From positions 1-35,528 of the forward strand of contig JAJYRI010000016.1 in NCBI GenBank assembly GCA_021794175.1: DNA of 35,528 bases. The letters are read 5' to 3'. The notes under the pieces are model-generated. The model saw only the letters and a program-made list of their open reading frames with translations, searched no databases and was not told the DNA's origin. The translations under genes were made by a program, and so were the position numbers. The DNA comes from a bacterium. Lineage in GTDB: Bacteria; Vulcanimicrobiota; Vulcanimicrobiia; Vulcanimicrobiales; Vulcanimicrobiaceae. Every line of letters begins with the position of its first letter. Positions within the stretch are counted from its first letter, which is position 1. Positions 7,156-25,287 of the stretch are shown piece after piece.

Positions 7156-10034
7156 GAGTTCACCGCTGTCAACGCGCCGTCGCAGATGGTGGAGAAGGCG
7201 CAACGCTCGCAGGTGCGCCCGCTTTGCGTCACGCCGAAACGATCGATCGCGCCGCTTATGCGCTGCACGAAGCCCCGTTCAATCGCCTCGTCGATCGCCG
7301 CGAACAGCGTGCCGTCACCGACCAGCGTATCGTCGAGAATGGGGCCTTCTCCGTCTTTTCCACGCAGGTAGAGTAGCGCGACCGATTCGGCCTCGGAAAC
7401 GGCGCGGCGGTAGAGCGGCAGCTGCACGCTCGCGATATCGGGCGCCGCTTCGTCGTAGAGCGTGCCCTCCGCGATGGCGGCGATGAAGCGCTCGGACTGT
7501 TTGCCGAATGCAGCCTTCATCCGGCCGGATTTCACATCGACGATGCGCGTGCCGCCGTCATCGAAGCGATCGATACGGTCGATCTTCCCGCGAAGAGTGA
7601 AAGGGCCGAGCGGCATCTGGATGCGTTGTTCGATTGCGTCGACGGTGAACGGGCGCTGCGCGCCTGTTCCGGCGAGTTGTTCTGCATAAGCCGCAAGCAT
7701 ACGATCCGCGCTTGCGGCGGAAGCGCTGCGTTCGAGCGCGCTTTCGAAGGCGTCGCCGAGCTCGGCCCAGACCTCCTCGCGGATGCGACGCAGCTGCGCA
7801 ATGGACCGCTCGCGCTCGAACGATGCATCGACGCGTGCATGCTCGCGGTGGAAGCGTTCGATGCACAGGTGCAGAGCGGTACCGAAGCTGCGTTCGAACG
7901 CGGTTTCACTCGGTAAGCGCAGGATCGAGGCGTAGAAGAATTTGCGTTCGCACGTGAACCAATGGTCGATGCGGGTGACGCCGATGTCCGCGGGCAGCGG
8001 CACCGGTTCCGGCGTACATGCCGTGGGCAGTTGGTCGGCGCCGGCGTATGTGAGATCGGCGTAATACGGCGGCGTTGAGGCGAGCGCCTCGCGGTGATCG
8101 ACGGGCAAGAAACGCGTCGGGTTCTGCGGTGAGCCATCGAGCGAGGCTCGTGCGGATGTCACGGTGAGCGCATGGCGCGCGCGCGTTAGTGCGACGTACC
8201 AAAGCGAGCGTTCTTCGGCGAGGCGCTCGCGCGGTGTTGCCCCGAGATCGCAGCCATTCGTGCGCGCGAGCGTGAGATCGCTATCAGGGAGCACGCCGTT
8301 GCGCGCGAGTTCCACCGGCAGGCGACCGTCGGCCGCATCGGCCACGACCACCGCGTCGAACTCCAGGCCCTTGGCGCCGTGGATCGTGAGAATGCGAACG
8401 ACGGCGGTATCTTCGTGTTCGCGGTCGTCGTTCAGACCTGCGGCATGCCGCTCGAAGAGTTCGAGCAATTCGACACAACGGAGTGGACGCTGCAGGCTCA
8501 CGTGCAAGCGGACAAGGTCGTCGATGGCGCCGAGTACGCGCTTAAGCCGCGCGTTCGCGCGCGCGGCGGCGACATCGTCGAGTGCGACCGCGGCTCCTAG
8601 CAGGTCGAGATCGCGCACGAGGCCGCGCGCGATCGCCGCGAGGTCGCCGTGCGACCATGCTTCGCGCGCGGAATGCAGCGCCTCGCCGATGCGCGCATGC
8701 GTTACGCGACCGTCGCCGACCGTGCGCAGCACATCGAGCGCATGCTCTAGCGAGAGGGGTGGTGCCGTCGCGAACGCACGTGCCATGCGTAAGCGCGGCA
8801 GGCCGAATGCGAAGGAGGAGAAGAGGTCGCGCCAGCGGTCTGCATCGCGTTCGTCGGCGAGGGCCCGCAGCGCATCGAGCAGCACGCGAACGATGGGTTC
8901 GTGCACGATCGCGTCGCCGCCGACGAGAGAGGCCCGGATGCCCCGGCGTTCGAGTTCGGCACGGACGAATGGCCCCAGCGGTTCGAGCGCACGCAGCAGT
9001 ACGCCGATCTCGCTGTGGGGGATGCCCGAGTCGAGCGCGTCCTGCACGCGTTCGGCCACAAGCGCCGCTTCGTCGAGTGGGGTAGCCGCCGTCTCGGCGC
9101 GCACAGTTCCGGTTGCGGTAGATTGCGTGTCGATTCGGCTTTGTGGCAAGAGCCCGGGTGTGGCGTTAACGAGCGCGCATATCTCCGGCGCGCAGCGGTG
9201 CGAAATGCGCAGCGGTACGCGGCGCATGTGCAGCGATATGGCGGCACGTTCGATCGCGTCACGCGCGGCGCCGCGAAAGCCGTAGATCGCCTGGGCGGCG
9301 TCGCCCACGGCGAAAATCACCGACGGAATCGCCTCGAGTAACGCTAGCTGCTGTGGATCGGTGTCTTGAAACTCGTCGACAAGGATGTGCGCATAGCGAT
9401 CGCGCAGCGCCGCGTACAATCGCGAGGACGGATCGGCCGCGAGGCGAGCGGCACGGGTGACGAGATCGTCATAGTCGGTGACGCCGAGCATCCTGCGCAG
9501 GTCGCGTAGTGTATCGGCGACGCGTAGCAGGTCGCGCGCAGCGTTACTGCCCTCACGTTCGAGAGCGGCGCGCACGTTGTCGTCTGCGCGGGCGAGGTCG
9601 GCGACGTAGCGTTCGGCGTCGCGGGCAAAGGCCGACGAGCGAAAGACCTGCGGCGCGAAGCCGTGCGGTTCCACGCGTGCGAACGCTTCGAGTAGAAGTA
9701 CTTCGCTTGCGGGTTTTTCGAGCAGACGGCCAGAGATGAAACCAGGTGTATCAATTTCAAGCAGACGGCTTGCGAAACCGTGGAAGGTGCGCACCTCGAT
9801 GCGGGGCGCCTCGTGCGGCATCGTTTGAGCGATGCGTTCACGCAACTCATGCACCGCTCGGCGCGAGAAAGTGAGCGCGAGGATGCGATCCATTGCGATG
9901 CCACGGTCGTGAATCAGGTGAGCGATGCGCGCAATGAGCACGCGCGTTTTTCCGGCGCCCGGAGCTGCTTCGATGACAAGGTTCCCTACATCGTCGAACG
10001 CGGCGGCGCGCTGCTCGGGGGTAAGATCGATCAT
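7152..10034 (-). CDS. UvrD-type helicase with C-terminal RecB-family nuclease and Fe-S cysteines (AdnAB-like subunit, first gene)
   Basis: The 960-residue protein begins with Walker A APGAGKT (24-30). It continues with motif II LVDEFQDT (218-225), motif III VGDAAQAIYGFRGA (243-256), motif V TIHGAKGLEFD (550-560) and motif VI YVALTRAR (613-620), all typical of an active UvrD/Rep motor. The C-terminal nuclease shows H722, GKIDRID (D819), VDVKSGR (D833, K835) and QLPLY (871-875). C695, C942, C945 and C951 (C...CX2CX5C) form the expected Fe-S cluster set. It overlaps the SbcC-like gene upstream and the second helicase-nuclease downstream by four bases each, so the pair is probably made in equal amounts and works as a heterodimer. 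Automatic annotation may call it PcrA or AddA, but AddB-type partners lack a working motor and this neighbour does not. Confidence 0.85.
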   Translation of the reverse strand: MIDLTPEQRAAAFDDVGNLVIEAAPGAGKTRVLIARIAHLIHDRGIAMDRILALTFSRRAVHELRERIAQTMPHEAPRIEVRTFHGFASRLLEIDTPGFISGRLLEKPASEVLLLEAFARVEPHGFAPQVFRSSAFARDAERYVADLARADDNVRAALEREGSNAARDLLRVADTLRDLRRMLGVTDYDDLVTRAARLAADPSSRLYAALRDRYAHILVDEFQDTDPQQLALLEAIPSVIFAVGDAAQAIYGFRGAARDAIERAAISLHMRRVPLRISHRCAPEICALVNATPGLLPQSRIDTQSTATGTVRAETAATPLDEAALVAERVQDALDSGIPHSEIGVLLRALEPLGPFVRAELERRGIRASLVGGDAIVHEPIVRVLLDALRALADERDADRWRDLFSSFAFGLPRLRMARAFATAPPLSLEHALDVLRTVGDGRVTHARIGEALHSAREAWSHGDLAAIARGLVRDLDLLGAAVALDDVAAARANARLKRVLGAIDDLVRLHVSLQRPLRCVELLELFERHAAGLNDDREHEDTAVVRILTIHGAKGLEFDAVVVADAADGRLPVELARNGVLPDSDLTLARTNGCDLGATPRERLAEERSLWYVALTRARHALTVTSARASLDGSPQNPTRFLPVDHREALASTPPYYADLTYAGADQLPTACTPEPVPLPADIGVTRIDHWFTCERKFFYASILRLPSETAFERSFGTALHLCIERFHREHARVDASFERERSIAQLRRIREEVWAELGDAFESALERSASAASADRMLAAYAEQLAGTGAQRPFTVDAIEQRIQMPLGPFTLRGKIDRIDRFDDGGTRIVDVKSGRMKAAFGKQSERFIAAIAEGTLYDEAAPDIASVQLPLYRRAVSEAESVALLYLRGKDGEGPILDDTLVGDGTLFAAIDEAIERGFVQRISGAIDRFGVTQSGRTCERCAFSTICDGALTAVNS

Positions 10035-12757
10035 GCAACGCTCGGGCGGCGCAGCAGATCATCGAGATCGATACGATGTGCTCCCTTCGGCATCGATGCA
10101 TAGCGGTCAGGGTCGCAGCCGGTGAGGATCACCTGCAGGTTGTCCTGTTCGGCCTCAGCCAGCACCTCGAGAATCCGATAGAGTCGAACGGGATCGCAGA
10201 AGGTGAGCGCATCGTCAAGAATCACCACTTGCGGCTCGTCTTTGGCGAGCAGCGAACCCATAGCGAGCCGCATGGCGACCTCGATCTGTTCTTGCTCGCC
10301 GCCCGAAATCGTGTCGGAGATTGTCTTTCCGTTCCAAGCGGTCGTGCCGAACGAGAGTCGCATCATGGCCTTGTCGTCGAGGTCGAAACCGATCCGCACG
10401 TCGTCACGCGACATGATACGGCGCGCGAAGGCCGTTGCGTTGGCGGCGAGCGGGGCATTGACCGCCTCAGCGATCGCGCGCGAGGCTGCTTCGACGTGGT
10501 CGTGCAGCAGCTTAGCCGCTCTCGCGTCGCGCAAGGCGACGGCTCTGCGGCGCTCAACCGTTTCGAGATCGGCCTCCGCTATCGCAAGCGTCTCGTACGC
10601 GCCGGCATTCGTTTCGAGCCTGGCGCGGAGCCGGGCAGCCTCAGTCCTATCTTTCTCGATCTCGACGCTGAGTTGCTCTATCGAATGCTGAATGCTTTCG
10701 TATTCACCAACTGGATCACCGGGTATCTCGGCGCGCTGTTCGCGAAGATCGTCACGTTTTGCGGTAGCCTGTAGCTCCTGCAGACCGATCCCCTTGACCT
10801 TTTCAAGGAGATTCTGCGACTCGGCAAGGCTGACGACGTTGCGATACCGTGCGATCTCGATGTGTTTGCTTTGCTGTTCTTGTTGCAGCCGTTCTCGGTC
10901 GGCGAGGAGCTCTTTGCGTTGCGTTTGTTGGGCCTCGATCTTCTCGTTCGCGGCGGTGAGCGCTAAGATTGCCGCTTCTCGGCGAGGTTCGATCTGCACG
11001 GTCAGGGCCTCCGGATCAGGGCTGTTCGCAGCCCATTCCGGATAGCGGTCGAGCAAATCTTGGCGGTTCGCTCGTCGGCTTTCGAGCGAGGCGATCAGTG
11101 CGTCGGGTTCTTCGCCGTTGAGGAGTCCGCTCAGGCGCGATTCGACATCTGCGAGCTCACGCATGTAGTTGGCACGATCGGCACGCCGGGTTTCAAGAGT
11201 TTCGATGGGTGCATCGCCATAGGGAGCGAGAAGTGTGGAGAGCGCTTCGTTCGCGGCGTTAAGTGCATCGCGGAGTTTGGCTGCAGATTCCATCGGGCTA
11301 GAGAAGCGGAGTGTACCGACCTCTAAAATATCGAGGTCAATTTTGCCTAAGCCGATGACGAGAGCCTCTGTCCCGGCCTTACACTGGCGTTCTCCTTCCG
11401 GAGATCCCGAACGAATTCGAAGCGTAATATCGTGCTTGGGGGTGAAACGTAGGGTAAGCGATTCGCTCTCCACTCGCTGACGCGCTTCTCGTTGTACGCC
11501 GTGCGCCTTAACGAGTGCGTTCCAAGCGTCGTCGTCGGGAGCGATGACGGCCGCGACCTTGCGGATCGCCTCTTCGCGGAGCGCGCGTAGTTCGTCGATC
11601 GTAGCCAATCGATGTCCGAACTCACTCAGCGTCTCGTTCGCTAAAAGGAATCTGCGTGCATCGGCAACGCGTGCTTCCTCGGCGGCTACCGCCGTACTTT
11701 CCTCGTGCGCGCGGCCCTGATCGTCGAGGGCACGTTCGATTGCGCCTTCAGCCTCGGTGATCCGTTCAGCGATTTGCGCGATGCTTCGATCCAGCGCAAG
11801 AATCTGCGGCTCGATTGCCTTCGTGCGGTCCTGTGCTTCGTTCAGTGCATCGCGCTCTTTGGAGATACGGCCGAGTTCGGCAGTAGCGCGAATCGCGTCT
11901 TGCTCCGCAAGCTCAATGCGATGATCGAGTTCGCGAACTCGGTCAACCACGCCCTTGAGCTCATCAAGTCGTCGGCGCTGATCGATACGTTTCATGCTGC
12001 GAATATCGAGTAGTGTATTGATCTCGCCGAACGCCTTGCGCTGTTCGAGCACTAGCTGATTAGCCTCACACGCATGTTCCCGTCGTTCGCGTGCTTGGGT
12101 AGCGGCCTTCTCGAGCGCGGGGATGTTGGCGCTGGGCTGCCCTTTCGCGTAGTTTTTCCCTTTAGGTTCCCAATAGCTCTTGAATCGTTCGTCGATCGCG
12201 TCACGTATTAGCGACTCCGCGGATGAGACCGTGGCCGAGCCCGGGGCGATGAGAGAACGCAGATGCTGTTCCTGTGCAGTCGGCAGCTTGCCGAGCGCCG
12301 GAGCCGATTGGCGCGCCCATAGAACGGCTCCTAGGCCGTATTGTTCCGGTTTTGCCACCCCTTTGCCGGGCCGATCAAGCGCAAGCGCTTTATCCAGCCA
12401 CGCTTCAACCTCTTCGCCGTCGGCGATGGCCACAAACTCGCCACCTTCGTCACGTTCGAGTTTCGCGTATACGCCCTTGAGAAAGGCTTTGCGGATCCGA
12501 AAGCGGCCATCGTTGCCCTTCAACGTAACTTCGACCGTCGGCGTGATGTCGTAAGCGACATGGCGCAGCAATGCGCTAATCGTATCGCCGGAGGTCTTGT
12601 GACTCTGGACGAGCGCGGCGACGAGCCCATCGATGAGCGTGGACTTGCCGGTGCCGTTCGGCGCGACGATGACGTTCAAGCCAGGCTGCAATCCTTTAAT
12701 TTCGATGCGGTTGCGGAAATGACGGATGCCTTCGAGCGCAATCGACTCGATGATCAT
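10031..12757 (-). CDS. SbcC/YhaN-like SMC-family ATPase without zinc hook
   Basis: The 908-residue protein has N-terminal Walker A APNGTGKST (32-40), two long coiled-coil arms (about 215-430 and 490-745), signature TISGGEQEQ (816-824) and Walker B VVILDDA (844-850). It pairs with the SbcD-like gene just upstream (ATGA overlap), as Rad50 pairs with Mre11, and so should gate an end-processing nuclease. It differs from canonical SbcC in three ways. There is no CxxC hook; the midpoint (about 434-487) is a short strand-rich segment. Walker B reads LDDA rather than the usual Asp-Glu. The usual H-loop His is replaced in LTGCDPDRY (878-886). These features are closer to the YhaN branch of the family. 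The role in break repair is inferred from family and neighbours. Confidence 0.8.
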   Translation of the reverse strand: MIIESIALEGIRHFRNRIEIKGLQPGLNVIVAPNGTGKSTLIDGLVAALVQSHKTSGDTISALLRHVAYDITPTVEVTLKGNDGRFRIRKAFLKGVYAKLERDEGGEFVAIADGEEVEAWLDKALALDRPGKGVAKPEQYGLGAVLWARQSAPALGKLPTAQEQHLRSLIAPGSATVSSAESLIRDAIDERFKSYWEPKGKNYAKGQPSANIPALEKAATQARERREHACEANQLVLEQRKAFGEINTLLDIRSMKRIDQRRRLDELKGVVDRVRELDHRIELAEQDAIRATAELGRISKERDALNEAQDRTKAIEPQILALDRSIAQIAERITEAEGAIERALDDQGRAHEESTAVAAEEARVADARRFLLANETLSEFGHRLATIDELRALREEAIRKVAAVIAPDDDAWNALVKAHGVQREARQRVESESLTLRFTPKHDITLRIRSGSPEGERQCKAGTEALVIGLGKIDLDILEVGTLRFSSPMESAAKLRDALNAANEALSTLLAPYGDAPIETLETRRADRANYMRELADVESRLSGLLNGEEPDALIASLESRRANRQDLLDRYPEWAANSPDPEALTVQIEPRREAAILALTAANEKIEAQQTQRKELLADRERLQQEQQSKHIEIARYRNVVSLAESQNLLEKVKGIGLQELQATAKRDDLREQRAEIPGDPVGEYESIQHSIEQLSVEIEKDRTEAARLRARLETNAGAYETLAIAEADLETVERRRAVALRDARAAKLLHDHVEAASRAIAEAVNAPLAANATAFARRIMSRDDVRIGFDLDDKAMMRLSFGTTAWNGKTISDTISGGEQEQIEVAMRLAMGSLLAKDEPQVVILDDALTFCDPVRLYRILEVLAEAEQDNLQVILTGCDPDRYASMPKGAHRIDLDDLLRRPSVA

Positions 12758-13875
12758 GATGAAACCTCAACACCTTGGCGGGCGGCGATATCGTAAAGTA
12801 GTTCGAGTGCGTCCATCGCAGCGGATTCAGCCTCGGCTTCTGAAGCGAGTTTGCGCGCAACGTTGCGCAACGTGCCGATGGGAAGCACATCGATCCAACG
12901 GTCGTCGTCGGGCGCGCTACGAACCGCGGAGTCGTTGACGTCGAACCAAAGAAAGCCGGCAGTGGCGAGCGCACGAAGCTTGGTAAGCCCCTGCATCGCT
13001 TCGGCGCGCAACGTGCCGTTGAGGATGAGGCGCACGATATGGCGCCCACGAGGATCGAGCGCACGCAATTCATCGCAGAGTAATGTCAAACCATCGGTGG
13101 AAAGGTCCGTTTGCGTACGGAGCTGCCATTTCAACTCGCCGACGGGAATCGGCGTGACGCGCGGTGCGGCACCCGGCGTGTCGATCTCGACGAGCACGAT
13201 GTTGCCGGGGTTCTTGTCGTCGAACGCCGTGCGTTCGTGGGTGCCGCTGTAAACCGTGCGGATCGCACCTGCAGCATCGGGGAACTCGAGATAGCCATGC
13301 CAATCGCCGAGGGCAAGGTAGTCGAGCCGCATTCGTTCGGCTGCATCGTGTGCGATCGGGAAGTTCAGTTCGTCGTCACCGACACCCGCACCGCGCAGCC
13401 CGCCGTGGGCGACCCCGATGCGAAATCCTTGGGTATCGAGGTGTTGCCCGATCCATTGCGTCGCGTCTTGCGTCCCGTGCTTCGATGAGACCGGGCACGG
13501 AAATAGTGTGACTCCGTCGGCGGCCGTAATAGGCTCAGGTGCGAGCATACGGACGATGTTCGGCGCGTCGCTCCAGAGGTGCTCGCGCCGCCAGAGCGAG
13601 GCGGCGTAGGCGGGATCGTGGTTGCCGGGCAAAAAAAAGACGGGCCTTTCGAAGACGGCAAGCGTGCGCGCTACGCGTTGCACGAGGGCTTCGGGTACGG
13701 CGAGGTCGTCGAACACGTCGCCCGCGACGATAATAAACTCAGCCTCCCGCTCGCGTGCAAGCGACACGAGACGATCGAGGGATGCAAAGCGGGCTTCGCG
13801 CACTCGCTCTGCCTCGGTCCCGAACTGGGCGGCCGGCATGCCAATTTGCCAATCCGCAGTGTGGATAAACTTCAT
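12754..13875 (-). CDS. SbcD/Mre11-like (YhaO-type) DNA repair metallophosphoesterase
   Basis: This is the first gene of the repair operon, 373 residues long. Calcineurin-like phosphoesterase motifs appear in order: HTADWQIG (5-12, D8), GDVFDD (52-57, D53), GNHD (84-87), a VAHGG histidine (H157) and LGDWHGY (189-195, H193). These bind two metal ions (Mn in Mre11/SbcD) and cut DNA ends or hairpins when coupled to the Rad50-like partner. The usual D-x-H of motif I is D8-W-Q10, so glutamine replaces a metal-binding histidine. I believe some YhaO-like relatives share this. The start ATG (13873-13875) follows a GGTGGTG stretch. The 241-base gap before the divergent ABC-F gene must hold the operon promoter, though I see no convincing -35/-10 pair. 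Confidence 0.82.
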   Translation of the reverse strand: MKFIHTADWQIGMPAAQFGTEAERVREARFASLDRLVSLAREREAEFIIVAGDVFDDLAVPEALVQRVARTLAVFERPVFFLPGNHDPAYAASLWRREHLWSDAPNIVRMLAPEPITAADGVTLFPCPVSSKHGTQDATQWIGQHLDTQGFRIGVAHGGLRGAGVGDDELNFPIAHDAAERMRLDYLALGDWHGYLEFPDAAGAIRTVYSGTHERTAFDDKNPGNIVLVEIDTPGAAPRVTPIPVGELKWQLRTQTDLSTDGLTLLCDELRALDPRGRHIVRLILNGTLRAEAMQGLTKLRALATAGFLWFDVNDSAVRSAPDDDRWIDVLPIGTLRNVARKLASEAEAESAAMDALELLYDIAARQGVEVSS

Positions 13876-17950: not shown

Positions 17951-18050
17951 ACTCGGGATGACATTGCAACCCACTCGGGATGACATTGCGCCCTACTCGG
18001 GATGACATTGCAACCCACTCGGGATGACATTGCAACCTACTCGGGATGAC
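17951..18050. repeat. Five tandem copies of a 22-base intergenic repeat
   Basis: ACTCGGGATGACATTGC recurs at 17951, 17973, 17995, 18017 and 18039, exactly 22 bases apart. The last copy degenerates after ACTCGGGATGAC. The five linking bases alternate between AACCC/AACCT and GCCCT forms. The array lies between the 3' ends of convergent genes (17889 and 18085) and fills most of the 195-base gap. There are no unique spacers, so it is a minisatellite-like array and not a CRISPR. The rest of the gap (17890-17950) shows no gene or clear terminator. Confidence 0.9.
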
Positions 18051-18084: not shown

Positions 18085-19062
18085 TCAGTTGAGGTGCATC
18101 GCGTGCGCGATGCCGAGGCTCGTGAGCGATATCCCGACCCAGAGAATCGCGCCGAGGATCAGCGGTCGGACGCCCGCCGAGCGGATGCGCGCGTAGTCGG
18201 CGCTCAAGCCGACCGCCGCGAGCGCGACCGTAATCGCAAAGAGCGCGAGTTGATCGAGCGGTGCATGCCATGCTGCCGGGATATAACCGAAGCTGTTGAT
18301 GCCCGCAGCGACGACGAACCAGAGAACGAACCACGGAATAATCGAGCGCCATGGCACCGCATCGCCGCCGCGCATCGCAAACGCGCGCTTCCCGGCATAA
18401 AACGCAACCAACGGAATAATCAGCGTCGTACGCGTGAGCTTGACGATGACCGCGTGTTCCCCGGCGGCGTGGCCGAACACGAAGGCGGCGGCGACGACCG
18501 AGGATGTATCGTTGATCGCCGTACCGGCCCACAGGCCGAACGCATGTTGCGAGAGGTGCATGAGGTGCCCGATCGTCGGGAACGTCAGCACCGCCGCAAC
18601 GTTGAAGAAGAAAATCGTCGAGAGCGCGTAGGCAACGTCGGCACGATCCGATTCGACGGCGCTTGCCAGCGCCGCGATCGCCGAGCCGCCGCAGATCGCC
18701 GTACCGACGCCGAGAAGCCGGCGCAGATCGCGGTCGATCCCGAGCAATTTTCCGAAGATATACGCGAGCGCTAATACCACCACGAGCGTGCCCAACATCA
18801 CCGGGAGCGATTTGAGGCCGCCGGCAACGATGTCGGTAAAGCGCAATTGCGTGCCGAGCAACACGATCGACCACGCGAGCACTTGTTTGGTACTAAAGAG
18901 AATGCCCGGATGCAGCCGCGCACCAGGTGCGCGCACCGCGGTGATGAGCAGGCCGAGTGCGATTGCGACCACCGGCGAACCCACGACGGGCAGTACATGC
19001 CCGACGAGGGTTGCGACGGCCGCAATCGCGATCGCCAGAAGGAGCCCGGGAAGTATCTTCAC
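18085..19062 (-). CDS. YeiH-family (UPF0324) putative sulfate/sulfite exporter
   Basis: The 325-residue, roughly ten-helix membrane protein carries the two family signatures GVGTAICGGSAIAA (about 138-151) and WAGTAINDTSSVVAA (about 197-211). These occur in the YeiH/Cons_hypoth698 family, often annotated as putative sulfate exporters. In Escherichia coli, yeiH lies beside the LysR gene yeiE, which responds to sulfite. Here the gene is last in a minus-strand run behind a TsdA-like cytochrome, a DsrE-like protein and an orphan binding protein, with a CysL/YeiE-like regulator divergent from the run. This supports a role in moving an oxidised sulfur anion across the inner membrane, though the substrate is inferred. 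It starts 10 bases after the cytochrome frame ends (stop at 19069), indicating co-transcription. Confidence 0.85.
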   Translation of the reverse strand: MKILPGLLLAIAIAAVATLVGHVLPVVGSPVVAIALGLLITAVRAPGARLHPGILFSTKQVLAWSIVLLGTQLRFTDIVAGGLKSLPVMLGTLVVVLALAYIFGKLLGIDRDLRRLLGVGTAICGGSAIAALASAVESDRADVAYALSTIFFFNVAAVLTFPTIGHLMHLSQHAFGLWAGTAINDTSSVVAAAFVFGHAAGEHAVIVKLTRTTLIIPLVAFYAGKRAFAMRGGDAVPWRSIIPWFVLWFVVAAGINSFGYIPAAWHAPLDQLALFAITVALAAVGLSADYARIRSAGVRPLILGAILWVGISLTSLGIAHAMHLN

Positions 19063-19068
19063 GATGCG

Positions 19069-19908
19069 TTAAAAGAAACTCGCCGGTTCCGGGGGAAACG
19101 CGATCGCCGCTTTTTTATCGAAAGCCGGGCGCTTGTGACTTTCGACAAATGCCGCGACATCGTAGGCCTGTTGGTTGCTCAACGTGCCCGCTTTTCCAAG
19201 CGGCATGTTATAGCGAACGAAGCCCGCCATCATGGCGACCTTTGCCATGCCGGCCCCTTTGTTAAACGACGTCGCCCCCCAGAGCGCGGGGAACTCTCCG
19301 GGAATGCCGGCTCCGCCGGCTTGGTGGCACATCGAACATTGTGCTGCGTAAATTTTGGCGCCGCGCGTCACGCTCGGCGGAGCCGGCGGTTTGATACGCG
19401 CGATGCGCACCGCGGGATCGATCGGCGAGAATGTTTTCTGTCCTCTCGATATCCAATTGATATACGCAACAACCGCGATCATCGTGCGGCTATCGTATGC
19501 CGGGGGCTTGCCGTTCATGCTGTAGAGAAAGCACTCCGCAATGCGATCTTGCAGCGCGATCGCGCGGTGCGAGCGTTTGTTCCATTGCGGAAAGTGCCCG
19601 GCGATCCGGAGATAGCCGCCGCGCGGCACCGTACCGCCCGCGATATGACACGACGAACACTGCATCTGCGCGACGACGTACGGTTTCGCAAATTTGTGCG
19701 TCTGCGTGATGATATTGTATCCCTCGCGCACCATCGCGCCCATCTTTCCGGCCGGAAGGTGCGCGGGGTCATAGAGCGCGGCACCCGCAAGCGGAGCTCC
19801 CGCGCTCGTACCGCCGGTGCTACCGCCGGCGCTGCCGCCGGCGCCCCCGGCGCACCCGGCAAGCGCGAGTGCGACGACCGCACTCGCTACCGCATAGAAA
19901 GCTCGCAC
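19069..19908 (-). CDS. TsdA-like dihaem cytochrome c lipoprotein (putative thiosulfate dehydrogenase)
   Basis: I choose the GTG at 19906-19908 because AAGGGG lies six bases upstream. It gives a 279-residue protein whose N-terminus (AVASAVVALALAGC) is a lipoprotein signal with the lipobox cysteine at 19. A Gly/Ala/Ser linker (20-45) follows. Haem 1 is C84-SS-C87-H88 and haem 2 is C191-SM-C194-H195, with M235 a likely second ligand. Between them RIAECFLYSMNG places C126 42 residues after the first haem cysteine, matching in spacing and context the unusual Cys haem ligand of TsdA thiosulfate dehydrogenases. TsdA joins two thiosulfates to tetrathionate and passes electrons to cytochrome c. The frame extends upstream to 19971 into the previous gene, which is unlikely to be used. 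Tetrathionate reduction is the alternative direction. Confidence 0.78.
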   Translation of the reverse strand: MRAFYAVASAVVALALAGCAGGAGGSAGGSTGGTSAGAPLAGAALYDPAHLPAGKMGAMVREGYNIITQTHKFAKPYVVAQMQCSSCHIAGGTVPRGGYLRIAGHFPQWNKRSHRAIALQDRIAECFLYSMNGKPPAYDSRTMIAVVAYINWISRGQKTFSPIDPAVRIARIKPPAPPSVTRGAKIYAAQCSMCHQAGGAGIPGEFPALWGATSFNKGAGMAKVAMMAGFVRYNMPLGKAGTLSNQQAYDVAAFVESHKRPAFDKKAAIAFPPEPASFF

Positions 19909-19914
19909 CGCGCG

Positions 19915-19920
19915 CCCCTT
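19915..19920 (-). promoter_or_regulatory. Shine-Dalgarno fixing the GTG start of the cytochrome gene
   Basis: AAGGGG on the minus strand lies six bases before the GTG at 19906-19908 and touches the stop codon of the preceding gene (19919-19921), implying coupled translation. Confidence 0.55.
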
Positions 19921-20629
19921 AGAACGCCAGCGCCGTGTAGGCGTAGCCGAAGCGCTTCTGCAGCACGGCAACCGTCGCGACCATCGAAGGCACCACGATC
20001 GTTCCCGGAATGAGATGCGTCAGAATATCCGCTGCGACTTGCGAACCGTTCATTCCGGCGGGGGCGAAGCCGCGCTTGACGATCGCGCGCGACTGCTCTT
20101 CGACTGCCGTGTGACAGGTCAGCATCACCAGTCCGCGCCGTTGCAACGTCTGGATCGAACGATCTTGGTAGGTCGATTTCTCGTTGTCGGGATCGCCGGA
20201 GAGATTAAACGGCGTATGCGAGGGATAATGATAATTCTTCGTTGCGAAGGCGCCGTCGGGCCCTTTGATGTTGAAGAACTCGCCGATGCGATATTTCGCC
20301 CACACATAGTCGCTGAAATTATAGCTCGATGCCGGCCCATGCGCGGCGAAAGCCATCGCGATCTTCTGCTCCGGATATCCGTATCCGAAATGCAGGCCAT
20401 TAAGCGCGTTCTTGATATTGTTCCAGACAACCGGATTGGGATTGAGAATCTCCCACATTTGGCGAATCTCTGCCGGGCGCCCCAGCACTTTCGCGAAATG
20501 TGCCTCGTCGAAGTTGGTTTTCCGTTCGACGAGCGCCGTGCCGCCGGGTACTGATGCCGCCGCTTCGGCGAGCGTCGGCGCGAGGGCGACGATCGAGGCC
20601 GAGGTTGCAAGAAAGGCTGTGCGTTTCAT
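19919..20629 (-). CDS. Exported DsrE-like protein
   Basis: The 236-residue protein has a signal peptide (MKRTAFLATSASIVALAPTLAEA, cleavage near 23-25). The mature part has the alternating strand-helix pattern of the DsrE/DsrF fold: NALNGLHFGYGYPE (74-87), IAMAFAAHGPA (90-100), VMLTCHTAVEEQ (168-179, C172) and TIVVPSMVATVAVLQKRFGYAYT (210-232). The final strand-helix-strand and the single cysteine match the place where DsrE-family proteins carry persulfide sulfur. DsrE proteins are usually cytoplasmic sulfur carriers, so an exported version next to a TsdA-like cytochrome is notable. The ATG overlaps the stop of the binding-protein gene (ATGA). I infer a sulfur-carrying or sulfur-binding role in the periplasm. 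The fold call rests on pattern alone. Confidence 0.65.
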   Translation of the reverse strand: MKRTAFLATSASIVALAPTLAEAAASVPGGTALVERKTNFDEAHFAKVLGRPAEIRQMWEILNPNPVVWNNIKNALNGLHFGYGYPEQKIAMAFAAHGPASSYNFSDYVWAKYRIGEFFNIKGPDGAFATKNYHYPSHTPFNLSGDPDNEKSTYQDRSIQTLQRRGLVMLTCHTAVEEQSRAIVKRGFAPAGMNGSQVAADILTHLIPGTIVVPSMVATVAVLQKRFGYAYTALAF

Positions 20630-21519
20630 GAGTGGGTTCCTCCAGTTGTGAAGCCGTAAGAAGCATAGATGGCACGCGCGCGCGCGCCGGTCAGAAACGT
20701 AACGAACGCTTTAGCCGCCGCCGGGTGCGGCGCCTTCGTTATCGTGGCTGCTTGGTAGATTGCCGTTGCGTTTTCCGAGGCGGGGATTTTGACAACGGCA
20801 AGACGCCCGGTAAGTTTCGCTTGGTAGAGCGCTTCGGAGATCCATACGACGCCGGCATCCGCGCGCCCCGAGAGAATCCAGCGCGGACTCTGCCGATGGT
20901 GGATTTTCGTGAGGAGCGTCGTTCCCGCTTTGCGCTTGCTGACCATAATCGTCGAGACCAATGCGGCGCCGCCCGCTTTCCGGTACGCCGCCTGAATCTG
21001 CCCCGAGACGCCTTCCCATGCCGGGTTCGGCATCGCGACGCGAACGTCGGCACGCCCGAGATCGCGCAGACCCATCACGTGTTTCGGGTTTCCTTTTCGC
21101 ACGAGAATCGCCAGCGTGTTGGTCGCATAGGTGTGCGCGGGGCCGACGATGCCGCGCTTGCGTTCGATCGTCATGCGTTTCTTGCCGGAAAGAAAGACGT
21201 CGGGTTGCGGATCGATAACGAGATTGCCGATCTGCAAGGCGCCTGCCTCGATCTGTTTGGCGAGAATTCCCGGCGGCAGCGTTTCGTAAAATACGCGCTT
21301 GATATCGGGATGTTCGCGTTGGAACGCGGCAACGAGCGCATGCATCGCCATGTATTGATTGCCGGCGGCGAAGATGACCAGCTGAGCGTTCGCCGGGTTC
21401 CCATGCAGATCGGGAACGACGTCGACGTTCGGAACGGTGAAGTTGTAGGGGGTGACGCCGAGCAACGCGGCGGCGAGAATCGCCGCGGCAGCAGCACGGA
21501 AACGAAATGGAAACATCAT
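20626..21519 (-). CDS. Orphan ModA-type (molybdate/sulfate-like) periplasmic substrate-binding protein
   Basis: The start is taken at the paired ATGs (21514-21519) after CGGAG, giving 297 residues with a signal sequence (FRFRAAAAAILAAALLG). Mature features fit ModA-like type II binding proteins: AAGNQYMAMHALVAAFQREHP near the N-terminus, then PDVFLSGKKRM, then NTLAILVRKGNP followed by GLRDLGRADVRVAMPNPAWEG. The C-terminal half has GRADAGVVWISEAL. Such proteins bind tetrahedral oxyanions such as molybdate, tungstate or sulfate. No permease or ATPase gene is next to it. Instead it leads an operon with DsrE-like, TsdA-like and YeiH-like genes, so it may deliver or sense a sulfur oxyanion. The frame can be extended to 21561, which would overlap the regulator's operator, so the shorter start is preferred. 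Confidence 0.75.
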   Translation of the reverse strand: MMFPFRFRAAAAAILAAALLGVTPYNFTVPNVDVVPDLHGNPANAQLVIFAAGNQYMAMHALVAAFQREHPDIKRVFYETLPPGILAKQIEAGALQIGNLVIDPQPDVFLSGKKRMTIERKRGIVGPAHTYATNTLAILVRKGNPKHVMGLRDLGRADVRVAMPNPAWEGVSGQIQAAYRKAGGAALVSTIMVSKRKAGTTLLTKIHHRQSPRWILSGRADAGVVWISEALYQAKLTGRLAVVKIPASENATAIYQAATITKAPHPAAAKAFVTFLTGARARAIYASYGFTTGGTHS

Positions 21520-21561
21520 GCTCCGAGCATAGGAGCGGCGACTCCATAAGTCAAATAACAT

Positions 21562-21578
21562 ATTAGATGCAAACTAAT
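21562..21578. promoter_or_regulatory. Probable LysR operator between the regulator and the sulfur operon
   Basis: ATTAG (21562-21566), seven bases, then CTAAT (21574-21578) form a perfect interrupted dyad with the T-N11-A shape of LysR-type binding sites. It lies in the 70-base, A+T-rich gap between the divergent LysR gene (21590) and the binding-protein gene (21519). Its ATTA...TAAT form resembles sites of the CbbR/CysL/YeiE branch. Confidence 0.55.
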
Positions 21579-21589
21579 TCGTTTAGCTT

Positions 21590-22543
21590 ATGAAAGTCTC
21601 GCTCTCGCAGCTTGAAACGCTCGCCGAAGTTGCCGAGCGAGGCTCCTTCTCGAAGGCCGCCCGCGCCCTGGGCATCTCGCAGCCGGCGGTAAGCCAGCAG
21701 CTGGCGACGCTCGCCTCGGCGCTTGGCCTCACGCTCTTCTCGCGTGAAGCGGGACGCCCGGAGCTCACCGAGGCCGGCCGCATGGTCGCCGAGCGTGCCG
21801 GAAGTCTCGTCGCCGAGGCCGAGGCACTACAGCGCGAAGCGGAAGGTTACGTTGCAGCACGGAGCGGCCGGCTCGATTTCGGGGCGACGCGCACCATCGG
21901 GACCCATCTCGTGCCGAAGCTCCTCGCCGACTTTCTCCGCGATCGCCCTGGGGTCGAGCCTCGGGTCCGGATCGCCAACACCCACGAGGTCGAGCGCCTC
22001 GTTCTGCATGGCGACCTCCTCTTCGGATTGATCGAAGGCACGATCGACGAACCGCGGCTCGAGACGCGCCCCTTCGCCCACGACCGCTTGCGCCTCATCG
22101 TTGCGCCGCAGCACCCCTTTGCCGCGCGCACGGGTATTCGCGCCGCCGAACTCGCGCGCGAACGCTTCGTCAGCCGCGAGCCGGGCTCGGGCACGCGCGA
22201 CCACGGCTACGACGCTTTGCGCGCGGCGGGGGTCGAGCCGCCGATCGCGCTGGAGCTGCCCAGCGGTGAGGGAATCGTGCGCGCCGTCGAAGCCGGGCTC
22301 GGCATCGCGATCCTCTCCGAACGCGTTGTCGAACGCGCGATATCGTTACATCGCGTCGTACCGGTCGCCATCGACGATCTCGTCCTGGAACGCGATTTTT
22401 ACATACTTCTGCGGCGCGAGCGTCCGCTCGCACCGCTCGCGCAGGCGTTCATCTCCACGCTGCTCGGTGAACCCGCCGCCGAGCAGAGCAAAGGTTCGCG
22501 CAGCACGGCGCGGAAAGATCGACGTCGAAGGAGTGGGCGTTGA
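21590..22543 (+). CDS. LysR-type regulator of the CysL/YeiE/CbbR branch
   Basis: The 317-residue protein has an N-terminal winged helix-turn-helix (about 5-62, with GSFSKAARALGISQPAVSQQ at 18-37). An effector-binding domain follows, with FGATRTIGTHLVPKLL near its start and FVSREPGSGTR later. The E-P-G-S-G-T-R block is typical of the CysL, YeiE and CbbR group, several members of which respond to sulfur or carbon-fixation metabolites. It is transcribed away from the sulfur operon across a 70-base gap holding a dyad operator, so it most likely controls both itself and that operon. The stop overlaps the TTG start of the hydrolase gene. The last 25 residues form a basic tail that is longer than usual. 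The effector is unknown; sulfite or thiosulfate is my inference. Confidence 0.85.
   Translation: MKVSLSQLETLAEVAERGSFSKAARALGISQPAVSQQLATLASALGLTLFSREAGRPELTEAGRMVAERAGSLVAEAEALQREAEGYVAARSGRLDFGATRTIGTHLVPKLLADFLRDRPGVEPRVRIANTHEVERLVLHGDLLFGLIEGTIDEPRLETRPFAHDRLRLIVAPQHPFAARTGIRAAELARERFVSREPGSGTRDHGYDALRAAGVEPPIALELPSGEGIVRAVEAGLGIAILSERVVERAISLHRVVPVAIDDLVLERDFYILLRRERPLAPLAQAFISTLLGEPAAEQSKGSRSTARKDRRRRSGR
22528..22533 (+). promoter_or_regulatory. Shine-Dalgarno supporting a TTG start
   Basis: AAGGAG lies six bases before the TTG at 22540-22542 inside the end of the LysR gene. No in-frame ATG exists near the start of the hydrolase gene, so this site decides the start. Confidence 0.6.
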
Positions 22544-23370
22544 AGAAGGATGATGATTTAGCCGCGCTTGCCAAAGCGATCGACGCCGTCGCACCTCGTC
22601 GAGTGGCGAGCGCGGACGATAGCGAGCTGCATCTCGCCCCACCGCACCTTCCCTTCGTCGCCGAGACCGATCCGGCGATCGCCGTCGAAATCGTCGAACT
22701 CCGACGTCTCGACACGACGATGCGCGTCTATACCGCCGGGCCACGCATCGTGCGCGCAAACACACCGGGAATCGTCGTCGTTCCACATCTCTGGGGCGTC
22801 GATGCCACGATTCGCGATATCGTGCGCCGCTTTGCAAAGGCCGGCTTTTCCACGGCTTCTCCCGATCTCTACGCGCGCTTCGACGCCCCGTCGGGCGACG
22901 AATCCTGCGACCGCAAACTCTTCGAACCGTTCGCCAAACGCATCGACCGTCGGCAAGCCGACGGCGATATTCGCGCGGCGGCGCTCTGGCTGCAAGCCCG
23001 CTCCCCGCAAGGGCTCATCGGCATCACCGGGCTCTCCGTCGGCGGGCATTACGCCCTGCTGCAAGCCGCCGACAACAACGATATCTTCCACTGCGTCGCG
23101 CCTTTTTACGGCTCGGTCGATCGCATCACGCCCGATCAAATCCACATTCCGGTCTGCGGAAGCTACGGCGAGCACGATTCGCTGATCTCCATCGATCAAG
23201 TGCGCTTCTTTCGCACGCTCCTGACCGTGCCGAACGATCTTCGCGTCTACCAAACCGCGGGGCACGATTTCTTCGACGATCGCCGCAGCGCGTTTGCACC
23301 GGCAGCGGCGAGCGATGCCTGGAAACGCACGCTGGAGTTCTTCAAGAGCCACCTCGTCCCGAAACACTGA
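22540..23370 (+). CDS. Dienelactone-hydrolase-family alpha/beta hydrolase
   Basis: The 276-residue cytoplasmic enzyme starts at TTG, overlapping the LysR stop (TTGA). The alpha/beta-hydrolase core runs from VYTAGPRI (63-70) through GIVVVPHLWGVD (77-88, oxyanion-loop region). The nucleophile elbow is GLSVGG (164-169, S166), followed by an acid loop CGSYGEHD (206-213, D213) and TAGHDFFDD (239-247, H242). Classical dienelactone hydrolase uses cysteine as nucleophile and this copy has serine, so an esterase, lactonase or thioesterase activity is equally likely. About 60 N-terminal residues precede the hydrolase fold. The overlap with the regulator gene implies co-expression, but a link to sulfur chemistry is not evident from the sequence. 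Confidence 0.8.
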   Translation: MKKDDDLAALAKAIDAVAPRRVASADDSELHLAPPHLPFVAETDPAIAVEIVELRRLDTTMRVYTAGPRIVRANTPGIVVVPHLWGVDATIRDIVRRFAKAGFSTASPDLYARFDAPSGDESCDRKLFEPFAKRIDRRQADGDIRAAALWLQARSPQGLIGITGLSVGGHYALLQAADNNDIFHCVAPFYGSVDRITPDQIHIPVCGSYGEHDSLISIDQVRFFRTLLTVPNDLRVYQTAGHDFFDDRRSAFAPAAASDAWKRTLEFFKSHLVPKH

Positions 23371-23373
23371 CCG

Positions 23374-24651
23374 ATGAGTGCGACGCTGGTTTCGATGCTT
23401 CTTATCGCCGCGGTCGTCGTCACTGCGGTGGTGACGGCAGTTCTTCTCCGCAACAGCCGCGGCAACCGAGACGACGCGGCAGCAAGATTCGAACTGCTGC
23501 TCGAGCGCGCGAAGAACGATTTAACCGCGACGCAACGCGAACTCGTCGATTCGTCGCGCGCGGAGTTTCTCGCTCTCGCCGGACAGCGCTTCGATACCAC
23601 GCAGGCCGGCATTGCAGCGAAGCTCTCCGAGCTCGTCGCTCCGGTCGGCGAGAAACTCAACCAAGTCGATGCCTTCGTTCGCGAGCTCGAACAAGCGCGC
23701 CTGACGGCCTATGCCGAATTACGCACGCAGGTCGAACAGCTCGCCAAGAGCGGCGGCGAGCTCAGCCTTGCGACGGCGGCGCTCTCGGAACGTACGACGA
23801 AACTCGCTTCGGCGCTGCGCAATCCGCAGACGCGTGGGCGATGGGGCGAATTGCAACTGCAGCGGGTCTGCGAGTTGGCGGGCATGTTGGAGCACTGCGA
23901 TTTCGAGACGCAAAAGCGCTTCACCGGCGTCGAGAAGGCGCAGCAACCCGATATGATCGTGAAATTACCGCAGGATCGCTTCATTTGCGTTGACGCGAAA
24001 GTTCCGCTCGACGCCTATCTCGATGCCGTTGAGAGCACCGACGAAGCAACCAAAGCGGCGCATTTTAAGAAGTACGGCGACGCGCTCAAATCACGGATCA
24101 ATGCCCTCGCTGCAGCGAAGTACCAGACGATTCCCGGCAGCGTGGATTTCGTCGTCATGTTCATTCCCGGCGAGAACTTTCTTAGTGCCGCCTATTCGCA
24201 AGATGAAGATATCATCGAATTTGCCGCAAAGAAGGCCGTCTACGTCGCGGGACCGCTGACGTTTATGGCGCTGTTGCGTTCGTACGGAATGGTCTGGCAG
24301 AGCCTCAAACAAGAACAAAACGTCCGCGAGATCGCCGCGCAGGGCCGGGTCGTCTTCGATCGCGTGCGCGTTCTTTCCGAACATTTGAACGATCTCGGCA
24401 AGAGCCTCAACACGGCGGTGACGGCGTATAACAAAGCCGTCGGTTCCTACGAATCGCGTTTGCTCCCCGGAAGCCGCGAGCTCGCAAAGCTTGCCGGAAA
24501 CCCCGAAGCGGCGGCGCAAGGAGAGATCGACCGCATCGAAAGCAACGCGGGCACCATCACGGCGTTGAGCGCACAAGAAGCCGCGTTCGCACTCGCACGC
24601 GAAGAGGAGCGCGATAGAATCGCGCTCCAAGACGGTTCGCTCGGCGGATAG
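23374..24651 (+). CDS. rmuC: DNA recombination protein RmuC
   Basis: The 425-residue protein follows the RmuC plan. There is a single N-terminal membrane anchor (LVSMLLIAAVVVTAVVTAVLL, 5-25), a coiled coil (about 30-150), and the conserved RmuC domain with GRWGELQLQRVCELAGM, PDMIVKLPQDRFICVDAKVPLDAYL, VDFVVMFIPGENFLSAA and AGPLTFMALLRSYGMVW. RmuC limits inversions and other rearrangements between short repeats, and its conserved domain is related to PD-(D/E)xK nucleases. It starts three bases after the hydrolase stop with no strong Shine-Dalgarno, so it is probably translated by coupling. It ends one base from the stop of the convergent peroxiredoxin gene. Confidence 0.92.
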   Translation: MSATLVSMLLIAAVVVTAVVTAVLLRNSRGNRDDAAARFELLLERAKNDLTATQRELVDSSRAEFLALAGQRFDTTQAGIAAKLSELVAPVGEKLNQVDAFVRELEQARLTAYAELRTQVEQLAKSGGELSLATAALSERTTKLASALRNPQTRGRWGELQLQRVCELAGMLEHCDFETQKRFTGVEKAQQPDMIVKLPQDRFICVDAKVPLDAYLDAVESTDEATKAAHFKKYGDALKSRINALAAAKYQTIPGSVDFVVMFIPGENFLSAAYSQDEDIIEFAAKKAVYVAGPLTFMALLRSYGMVWQSLKQEQNVREIAAQGRVVFDRVRVLSEHLNDLGKSLNTAVTAYNKAVGSYESRLLPGSRELAKLAGNPEAAAQGEIDRIESNAGTITALSAQEAAFALAREEERDRIALQDGSLGG

Positions 24652-24652
24652 G

Positions 24653-25207
24653 TTAGATTTTGTGGGTCGCTTCCCAGCGCTTGAGTGCGGCGAGGGTGTT
24701 TGCGACATGTTTCCCGGGCTGCAAATTCGTATAGGTGTAGATAATCCGGCCCTGCGGTGAGATCACGTACGACGTACGGTTGGCGTACTGCGGGGCCGCC
24801 GTGAGTACGGCGTCGTATTCTTTCATCACCGTTTGGTTGATATCGGCGGCAACGGGGAACTTACGGCGACAGACGCTGACGGAAAAGCGCTGTAACTTTG
24901 CTAGCGGATCGTGCGAGACGCCGATCACCGTTGCGTGAAGCGCCTTATATTTGCCGATCGCGTCGGCAAAATCATGCGCTTCGATCGTGCAGCCCGGGGT
25001 GAATGCCGCCGGGTAGAAATAGAGCACGACCGGCCCTTTCTTCAGAGCCGCGGCGAGCGAAAACGGAAACACCTTGCCGCCTTGGGTCGCCTGCAACGTA
25101 AACATCGGCGCCTTCGCACCGACCGGCAGGGCCGCTTGGGCTGCCGGCGTGAGGATCCCCAGGAGCAGCGCGCCGAGCGCAAGAGAACGGAAAAACGTTG
25201 AACGCAT
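24653..25207 (-). CDS. Exported Bcp/PrxQ-type peroxiredoxin
   Basis: The ATG at 25205-25207 has GGAGG eight bases upstream. It gives 184 residues with a signal peptide (FRSLALGALLLGILTPAAQA). The thioredoxin-fold core has VVLYFYPAAFTPGCTIEA (60-77), in which C73 is the peroxidatic cysteine of the AhpC/TSA-Bcp family, and FPVAADINQTVMKEYD for the C-terminal half. The family reduces peroxides using thioredoxin-like donors. The resolving cysteine that many PrxQ proteins have five residues after the first is histidine here (CTIEAH). C113 may serve instead, or the enzyme may be 1-Cys. Export suggests a periplasmic peroxide defence. The frame upstream to 25270 lacks a start signal. Confidence 0.85.
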   Translation of the reverse strand: MRSTFFRSLALGALLLGILTPAAQAALPVGAKAPMFTLQATQGGKVFPFSLAAALKKGPVVLYFYPAAFTPGCTIEAHDFADAIGKYKALHATVIGVSHDPLAKLQRFSVSVCRRKFPVAADINQTVMKEYDAVLTAAPQYANRTSYVISPQGRIIYTYTNLQPGKHVANTLAALKRWEATHKI

Positions 25208-25215
25208 AGTCACTA

Positions 25216-25220
25216 CCTCC
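25216..25220 (-). promoter_or_regulatory. Shine-Dalgarno fixing the peroxiredoxin start
   Basis: GGAGG on the minus strand lies eight bases before the ATG at 25205-25207. It rules out the longer frame beginning at 25270 as the main product. Confidence 0.6.
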
Positions 25221-25287
25221 GTGCCGTTCAACGGGGCGCGAGCCCGCGAAGTTGCACGGCACGGAGGCAAGCAGAGGGTCGGCGCGC

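Follow-up and report, generated by a model that had tools for sequence, protein, structure and literature searches.

A putative periplasmic thiosulfate-oxidation operon combining a Tsd-like protein, a TsdA-like cytochrome and a YeiE/YeiH-type pair

The window analysed here is the whole 35,528-nucleotide stretch of contig JAJYRI010000016.1, from a bacterium of the Vulcanimicrobiaceae; the closest relatives with a name bear the title Candidatus Eremiobacterota or just bacterium. Five genes at 18085–22543 form a compact cluster, four of them on the minus strand in the order solute-binding protein (SBP), Tsd/DsrE-like protein, TsdA-like cytochrome and YeiH, with a LysR-type regulator facing them on the plus strand. 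A first-pass annotation had proposed a periplasmic sulfur-oxyanion module at this place; all five genes were found as it described, family searches of each agreed with it in kind, and the general theme was supported by the families and by the company that these genes keep elsewhere. The reading that we favour, with a probability of about 0.68, is that the set constitutes a periplasmic thiosulfate-oxidation module with sulfite sensing and export. It is built on the operon itself, a conserved promoter, predicted folds, active-site residues and recurrent gene company.

The SBP gene (20626..21519) overlaps the Tsd-like gene (19919..20629) by 4 bases, and gaps of 10 and then 6 bases lead to the cytochrome gene (19069..19908) and the yeiH-type gene (18085..19062). 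The cytochrome start at 19908 is a GTG behind AAGGGG, the listed open reading frame beginning at 19971. A shared promoter/operator region (21520..21589) separates this operon from the regulator gene (21590..22543).

No Pfam family was found for the DsrE-like protein up to E 0.1. The model NF052225, which describes the Acidithiobacillus-type thiosulfate dehydrogenase, matched it with E 1.5e-30 and 106.4 bits, under the curated cut-off of 300, and matched 39 of 39 scanned homologs. Plasmid-borne members from Bradyrhizobium, Paraburkholderia and Gluconobacter exceeded the cut-off, the Gluconobacter Tsd sharing 29% identity with the window protein. A 53-row tree joined the window clade, the Acidobacteriota proteins and a few more rows in a supported group (99/97), whose sister was a clade (100/99) holding the proteins over the cut-off, with a third Tsd clade outside the other two under midpoint rooting. 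As judged from these comparisons, the protein is a homolog of the NF052225 Tsd proteins, in a sister clade. Cys172, Trp110, Tyr113, Arg165 and Gly166 were invariant in Tsd alignments of both 39 and 54 rows.

The predicted structure of this protein (pLDDT, the predicted local distance difference test, 88.6) was compared with known folds by re-alignment of Foldseek's own candidates, which gave Z 12.6 for MTH1491 (1l1s; 1.5 Å over 107 residues), 9.6 for YchN and 8.2 for DsrE (2hy5), the first unrelated fold reaching 4.2. Plain Foldseek returned a best E of 5.8e-3 and one DsrE-type entry among the first 50 rows. The Tsd alignment, run as a profile against the PDB, yielded nothing up to E 10, so that the link to DsrE comes from the predicted fold. 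The model assigns the protein the DsrE/DsrF/YchN fold, with Cys172 at a strand end, a placement taken from the prediction and not from superposition on the DsrE active-site Cys. The window Tsd resembles the DsrE/DsrF/YchN sulfur-transfer proteins in its predicted fold and in having an invariant Cys, possibly that of the DsrE active site, and differs from them in its signal sequence, a long insertion and a lack of sequence-detectable kinship to PDB chains. The earlier label of an exported DsrE-like protein was accordingly right as to fold but missed the sequence link to thiosulfate dehydrogenase, and nothing specific favours its proposal of an external persulfide carrier over a thiosulfate role. 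Because the protein groups with a family named thiosulfate dehydrogenase, a thiosulfate (thiosulfonate) role appears better supported. A chemical precedent for a thiosulfonate on a DsrE-fold Cys is the Metallosphaera protein DsrE3A, described as reacting with tetrathionate to form a Cys-S-thiosulfonate (PMC4175335).

The SBP (PF13531, E 4.6e-47) takes the ModA/SubI/Sbp fold (best Z 22.9), and its identity to a Gluconobacter SBP that adjoins Tsd and DoxD is 46%. Many positions are invariant among its Eremiobacterota and Acidobacteriota orthologs (27 rows). The modA model gave 53.5 bits against a cut-off of 62.5, and no ATP-binding cassette (ABC) permease or ATPase is encoded within the operon. 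Of the name "ModA-type" given to it before, the fold stands, and a modA identity is not supported; the protein belongs to a subfamily of orphan oxyanion-type binding proteins that accompany Tsd.

The third gene encodes a diheme cytochrome c lipoprotein (lipobox LAGC) that matched TsdA structures with E 1.5e-39. Two CxxCH hemes, Cys96, the Arg pair and Met209 of TsdA are all kept, and the position of Lys208 is occupied by Asn. The roles of these ligands, and the Asn in place of Lys208 in Campylobacter jejuni TsdA, are as described in PMC6879331. The window cytochrome was aligned with 64 module cytochromes, two Eremiobacterota rows lacking the heme-1, Cys96 and Arg positions. Among the rows having those positions, heme-1 His, Cys96 and both Arg residues were kept in 36/36 from Eremiobacterota and 26/26 from Acidobacteriota, heme-2 His and Met209 in 35/35 and 25/25, and Asn stood at the Lys208 position in 34/35 and 17/25, respectively. 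One Arg of the pair was aligned as Lys in the Paraburkholderia copy, and the Methylobacterium and window cytochromes are 36% identical over 242 columns. Thiosulfate/tetrathionate catalysis by the window cytochrome is putative. The protein resembles the TsdA/TsdBA enzymes in its Cys-ligated heme, both Arg residues and Met209, and differs from them in accompanying Tsd and an SBP. There is no TsdB-like second cytochrome in the window operon; on proteobacterial plasmids a second diheme cytochrome precedes the TsdA-like gene.

The promoter/operator region holds a -35 box TTGACT, a 17-base spacer, a -10 box TATGCT and an inverted repeat CATAAGT...ACTTATG. All 15 related loci compared, which come from several genera, repeat this arrangement in the LysR-SBP intergenic region, with a TATGCT-type -10 box. 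Each of these 15 intergenic regions contains the 10-mer TTTGACTTAT, which had 1 other copy in the 177,469 bases of those loci; the CATAAG half on the LysR side was found in 12 of the 15 and was missing in L083, L084 and L087. The operator box was present at 16/16 examined Eremiobacterota loci where a divergent LysR gene adjoins SBP or Tsd, and at 0/25 others. Outside the LysR-SBP arrangement, an exact TTTGACTTAT within 300 bases upstream was detected at one of 26 Eremiobacterota Tsd loci, L089, in which LysR is divergent from Tsd itself. The box therefore follows the regulator and not Tsd, and a general association with Tsd genes was ruled out. A single operator may serve both the regulator and the operon. 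Since only six to eight bases separate the end of the -10 box from the start codon of the SBP gene, the SBP mRNA is probably leaderless and its start probably lies at 21519, as set by the conserved promoter, and not at 21561, where the listed open reading frame begins.

The regulator (PF00126 and PF03466) falls in the YeiE/CysL/CbbR group and aligns with YeiE over the effector domain, Glu149 of its "IEG" motif standing opposite the Glu of the YeiE "IEG", which we take to be residue 145. Glu145 of YeiE is described as the residue that tells sulfite from sulfate (PMC12423496). The YeiE model NF040889 gave 175.2 bits against a cut-off of 480, and a selenium-linked LysR model, NF040786, scored higher at 193.4 bits, yet under its own cut-off of 250. 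In the PDB search, the LysR protein 8sbf and NdhR (5y2v) were better matches than the YeiE chains, which consist of the effector domain only. Because NdhR and 8sbf outscore YeiE, and NF040786 outscores the YeiE model, we consider YeiE-type sulfite sensing by the window regulator likely and no more than that.

The last gene of the operon encodes a membrane protein that belongs to the wider family PF03601 (E 2.9e-69) and reached 130.4 bits against the TIGR00698 cut-off of 232.6; it is a probable sulfite exporter. In Salmonella, YeiE is described as activating yeiH, the main sulfite-resistance gene (PMC12880088), and in a Hyphomicrobium denitrificans strain lacking tsdA and exposed to thiosulfate, yeiH rose 526-fold and its LysR gene 66-fold (PMC12423496). 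Like these pairs (Hden_0834/0835 in Hyphomicrobium), the window has a YeiE-like regulator and YeiH under a single control region. Unlike them, its YeiH gene closes an operon that also encodes thiosulfate-type proteins, and both members fall below their equivalog cut-offs. What the exporter would do in the window operon is a guess, because TsdA makes no sulfite and the 526-fold induction was seen in a strain without TsdA. Possible sources of sulfite are the acid decay of thiosulfate and later steps of thiosulfate use.

Sixty related genomes were compared, which are kin and not independent draws (10 belong to one genus); the window's own genome is 89.6% complete. A close cytochrome (E<1e-50) was present in 27/60 genomes, and all 27 carry some Tsd homolog (33/60 overall), in four cases (G010, G015, G044, G046) a distant one only, with E between roughly 1e-16 and 1e-18. 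Every genome whose SBP is close (E<1e-50; 19 genomes) or whose YeiH reaches 59% identity or more (18 genomes) is one of these 27; another 14 genomes have more distant homologs of YeiH. The module genes co-occur beyond chance.

Named loci are the best 80 of 106, from which the 45 flanked by 3 kb on either side were counted and the 35 with short flanks excluded; neighbours were sought by tblastn with window, Gluconobacter and Paraburkholderia queries, which very distant versions would escape. Beside Tsd in Eremiobacterota, we found the TsdA-like gene at 21 of 24 loci, SBP at 12, YeiH at 11 and LysR at 11, in the order SBP-Tsd-cytochrome-YeiH. The corresponding numbers for 21 Acidobacteriota loci were 18, 19, 0 and 1, and the order was Tsd-SBP-cytochrome. 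After reduction at 70% Tsd identity, again with full flanks, the TsdA-like gene remained at 12/15, SBP at 4/15 and YeiH at 4/15 Eremiobacterota loci, and SBP and the TsdA-like gene each at 10/12 Acidobacteriota loci. In a separate draw of 200 genomes from the class of Acidipila rosea, 20 had a Tsd match, about half of them close, so the module is scattered rather than universal; the named strain A. rosea DSM 103428 carries the triad.

Tsd was also found on 24 plasmid records, and 15 regions were analysed, several of them near-copies (such as two from Paraburkholderia fungorum and two with identical Gluconobacter/Acetobacter genes), which leaves fewer independent cases than 15. SBP lies beside Tsd in 11 of these regions, a TsdA-like gene in 9, DoxD in 3, neither in 3 and both in 0; YeiH is present in 2/15 and, together with its counts of 11/24 Eremiobacterota and 0/21 Acidobacteriota loci, this places it outside the widely shared core. 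On plasmids of Acetobacteraceae, DoxD occupies the place of the cytochrome, and in the Gluconobacter and Kozakia regions a LysR gene adjoins a TDT-family transporter. All five kinds of gene occur, in different orders, on plasmids of Methylobacterium radiotolerans (YeiH, thioredoxin, Tsd, SBP, a short LysR of 102 aa, two cytochromes, oxidase) and Bradyrhizobium betae (Tsd, SBP, SoxB-like, two cytochromes, LysR, and YeiH cut by the region edge). Tsd, the binding protein and a TsdA-like cytochrome are therefore found together in Eremiobacterota, Acidobacteriota and Pseudomonadota. With loci from three phyla, the survey of gene neighbourhoods answered positively the question of co-occurrence that the first-pass annotation had raised, and chance or an assembly artefact was ruled out by conservation across genera and phyla.

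Of the 29 Acidobacteriota loci whose upstream flank covers 2.8 kb, 18 have a cbb3-type oxidase gene within 3.5 kb upstream of Tsd, with a score above 300 bits in 15, and in Methylobacterium such genes come after the gene set. In three Acidobacteriota copies scanned (L123 4199–6796, L118 4103–6706 and L134 4103–6721), COX1, FixO and cytochrome c domains are fused in a single protein of 865–872 aa, a fused cbb3-type oxidase; the gene counted at the 18 loci is of this kind or resembles a piece of it. SoxB was sought in the window genome, with a best score of 75.5 bits against a cut-off of 550 (other sox genes were not searched); 6/60 relatives exceeded this cut-off, one of which (G015) is among the 27 with a close cytochrome, so that the module occurs mostly where SoxB was not found. 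DoxD was absent from the window operon and over its cut-off in 0/60 genomes, a strict threshold because the Gluconobacter DoxD itself scores 65.3 of 300; weak matches of up to 32.5 bits occurred in 27/60 genomes, the window genome giving E 2.6e-4.

The first-pass annotation knew of no described pathway with this gene set; the implied lack of any published counterpart is not supported: the YeiE/YeiH pair is a published sulfite-response system, and the operon AFE_0041-0046 of Acidithiobacillus ferrooxidans, compared here by its published description, is a close parallel. That operon is described as encoding a transporter, Tsd, a binding protein, DoxDA and a rhodanese (PMC2754497, PMC6335251). 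It has in common with the window an exported Tsd beside an orphan binding protein and a transporter in the same operon. It differs in having the quinone oxidoreductase DoxDA where the window has the TsdA-like cytochrome, a "C4-dicarboxylate transporter/malic acid transport protein" for YeiH, and the rhodanese. TsdA, YeiE/YeiH and a Tsd-SBP pair accompanied by DoxDA and a transporter are thus already known from published accounts, and the cluster is a variant made from known kinds of parts, not a categorically new pathway. The joint gene set was not found in the open-licence literature searched, which is not proof of its novelty. As far as that literature shows, what is new is the joint operon, the Tsd sister clade in two further phyla with the DsrE fold predicted for it, the finding that TsdA-like cytochromes and DoxD stand in for one another, and the association with oxidase genes.

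In the thiosulfate-oxidation reading, the substrate, the direction, the flow of electrons and the sensing and export of sulfite would follow those of the known families. The SBP would capture thiosulfate outside the inner membrane, and the DsrE-fold Tsd, the lipid-anchored cytochrome or both would couple two thiosulfates to tetrathionate by TsdA chemistry, with the electrons passing to a terminal oxidase; the YeiE-like regulator would sense sulfite and drive the operon, and YeiH would export sulfite. How Tsd and TsdA would share the work is speculative, as is the origin of the sulfite from thiosulfate decay or later steps. Each of the two may be a thiosulfate dehydrogenase in its own right, or Tsd may act as a carrier from which the electrons leave via TsdA or DoxD. 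We put forward only tentatively a version of the latter, in which Tsd would be no independent dehydrogenase but an exported, DsrE-fold, cysteine-based thiosulfate carrier that is loaded by the SBP through a Cys-S-thiosulfonate and passes electrons to an interchangeable redox unit. Just as tentatively, this unit might be the TsdA-like cytochrome in Eremiobacterota, Acidobacteriota and several Pseudomonadota and DoxD(A) in Acetobacteraceae and Acidithiobacillus.

The cytochrome could also run in reverse as a tetrathionate reductase, with the SBP and Tsd binding tetrathionate. TsdA is described as bidirectional, the window copy has Asn/Met at heme 2 like the C. jejuni enzyme (PMC6879331), and a DsrE-family protein does react with tetrathionate (PMC4175335). 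We nevertheless regard reduction as unlikely, since oxidase genes adjoin the module in Methylobacterium and at many of the Acidobacteriota loci, DoxD, an oxidative enzyme, takes the cytochrome's place elsewhere, and Asn at the Lys208 position is also reported to be common in thiosulfate-oxidising proteobacterial TsdA (PMC9237845). Somewhat less probable still is a sulfite-stress operon with LysR and YeiH as its core, in which the three exported proteins would scavenge sulfite or its products without energy conservation. Such an operon would account for the sulfite exporter, which TsdA chemistry alone leaves unexplained, and is in line with the common promoter region and with the description of YeiE/YeiH as a sulfite-resistance pair (PMC12880088). 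However, within 3 kb of Tsd it is not this pair but the cytochrome that recurs in both phyla, YeiH and LysR being found at 0 and 1 Acidobacteriota loci and at 11 Eremiobacterota loci each. Finally, the ModA/SubI fold and weak modA similarity of the SBP could point to molybdate or sulfate uptake among unrelated neighbours. This we hold to be very improbable, and molybdate uptake as such was ruled out, given the modA score under the cut-off, the operon without ABC partners and the occurrence of the SBP subfamily beside Tsd in other phyla.

Several points weigh against the thiosulfate-oxidation module that we prefer. The biochemical role proposed for the window clade is assigned at the level of families, and Tsd, YeiH and LysR all lie below NCBIfam equivalog cut-offs. 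TsdA catalysis is bidirectional. TsdA chemistry by itself yields no sulfite, and the sulfite in the tsdA-less Hyphomicrobium strain is described as coming from fuller oxidation and not from TsdA (PMC12423496). SBP, YeiH and LysR were undetected by tblastn beside 12, 13 and 13 of the 24 Eremiobacterota Tsd genes, respectively. No oxidase gene was found upstream in 11/29 Acidobacteriota loci, nor in the window, the rest of the window genome not having been searched. Part of the conservation within the family, where the genes for RmuC, dienelactone hydrolase and peroxiredoxin are also syntenic, is plain ancestry.

The gene company names candidate partners for Tsd (the SBP with a TsdA-like cytochrome or DoxD) and comes with a predicted fold and one invariant Cys, which makes the partner question directly testable. 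If true, the carrier proposal would explain the unknown electron acceptor of Tsd and would represent a further carrier-based thiosulfate route, with Sox-like logic and other proteins. The operon also suggests thiosulfate use in lineages that surveys based on sox and dsr would overlook. It is present on contigs titled metagenome-assembled genome (MAG) 14 (L074) and MAG 15 (L069), matched by isolate name to the Eremiobacterota MAGs 14 and 15 for which dsr and sox were sought and no dissimilatory sulfur genes are reported (PMC8357290). In peatland Acidobacteria genomes, tsdA, sox and dsrE2 were sought and reported absent (PMC6018796), and tsdA and doxDA are treated elsewhere as two separate catalysts of one step (PMC11294248).

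Other Tsd-like clades were seen in the same phylum. At L052 (7365–9054, genome G035), beside dienelactone hydrolase and RmuC genes, a Tsd of the NF052225-type clade lies next to a close TsdA-like cytochrome, apparently through replacement of one Tsd clade by another; L048 and L049 hold members of a third and more distant Tsd-like clade, again with a TsdA-like cytochrome nearby. Viral contigs, scanned with just the window Tsd as query and hence for close relatives only, gave no match.

In the window itself, the genes at 22540–25270 encode a dienelactone hydrolase, RmuC and an exported peroxiredoxin and are syntenic with the operon within the family. At 17951–18050, between two genes, actcgggatgac is repeated five times with a spacing of 22 bases. 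At 4063–13875, two adjacent UvrD/PD-(D/E)XK proteins are followed by SMC-like and metallophosphatase proteins, a set presumably of the AddAB plus SbcCD kind.

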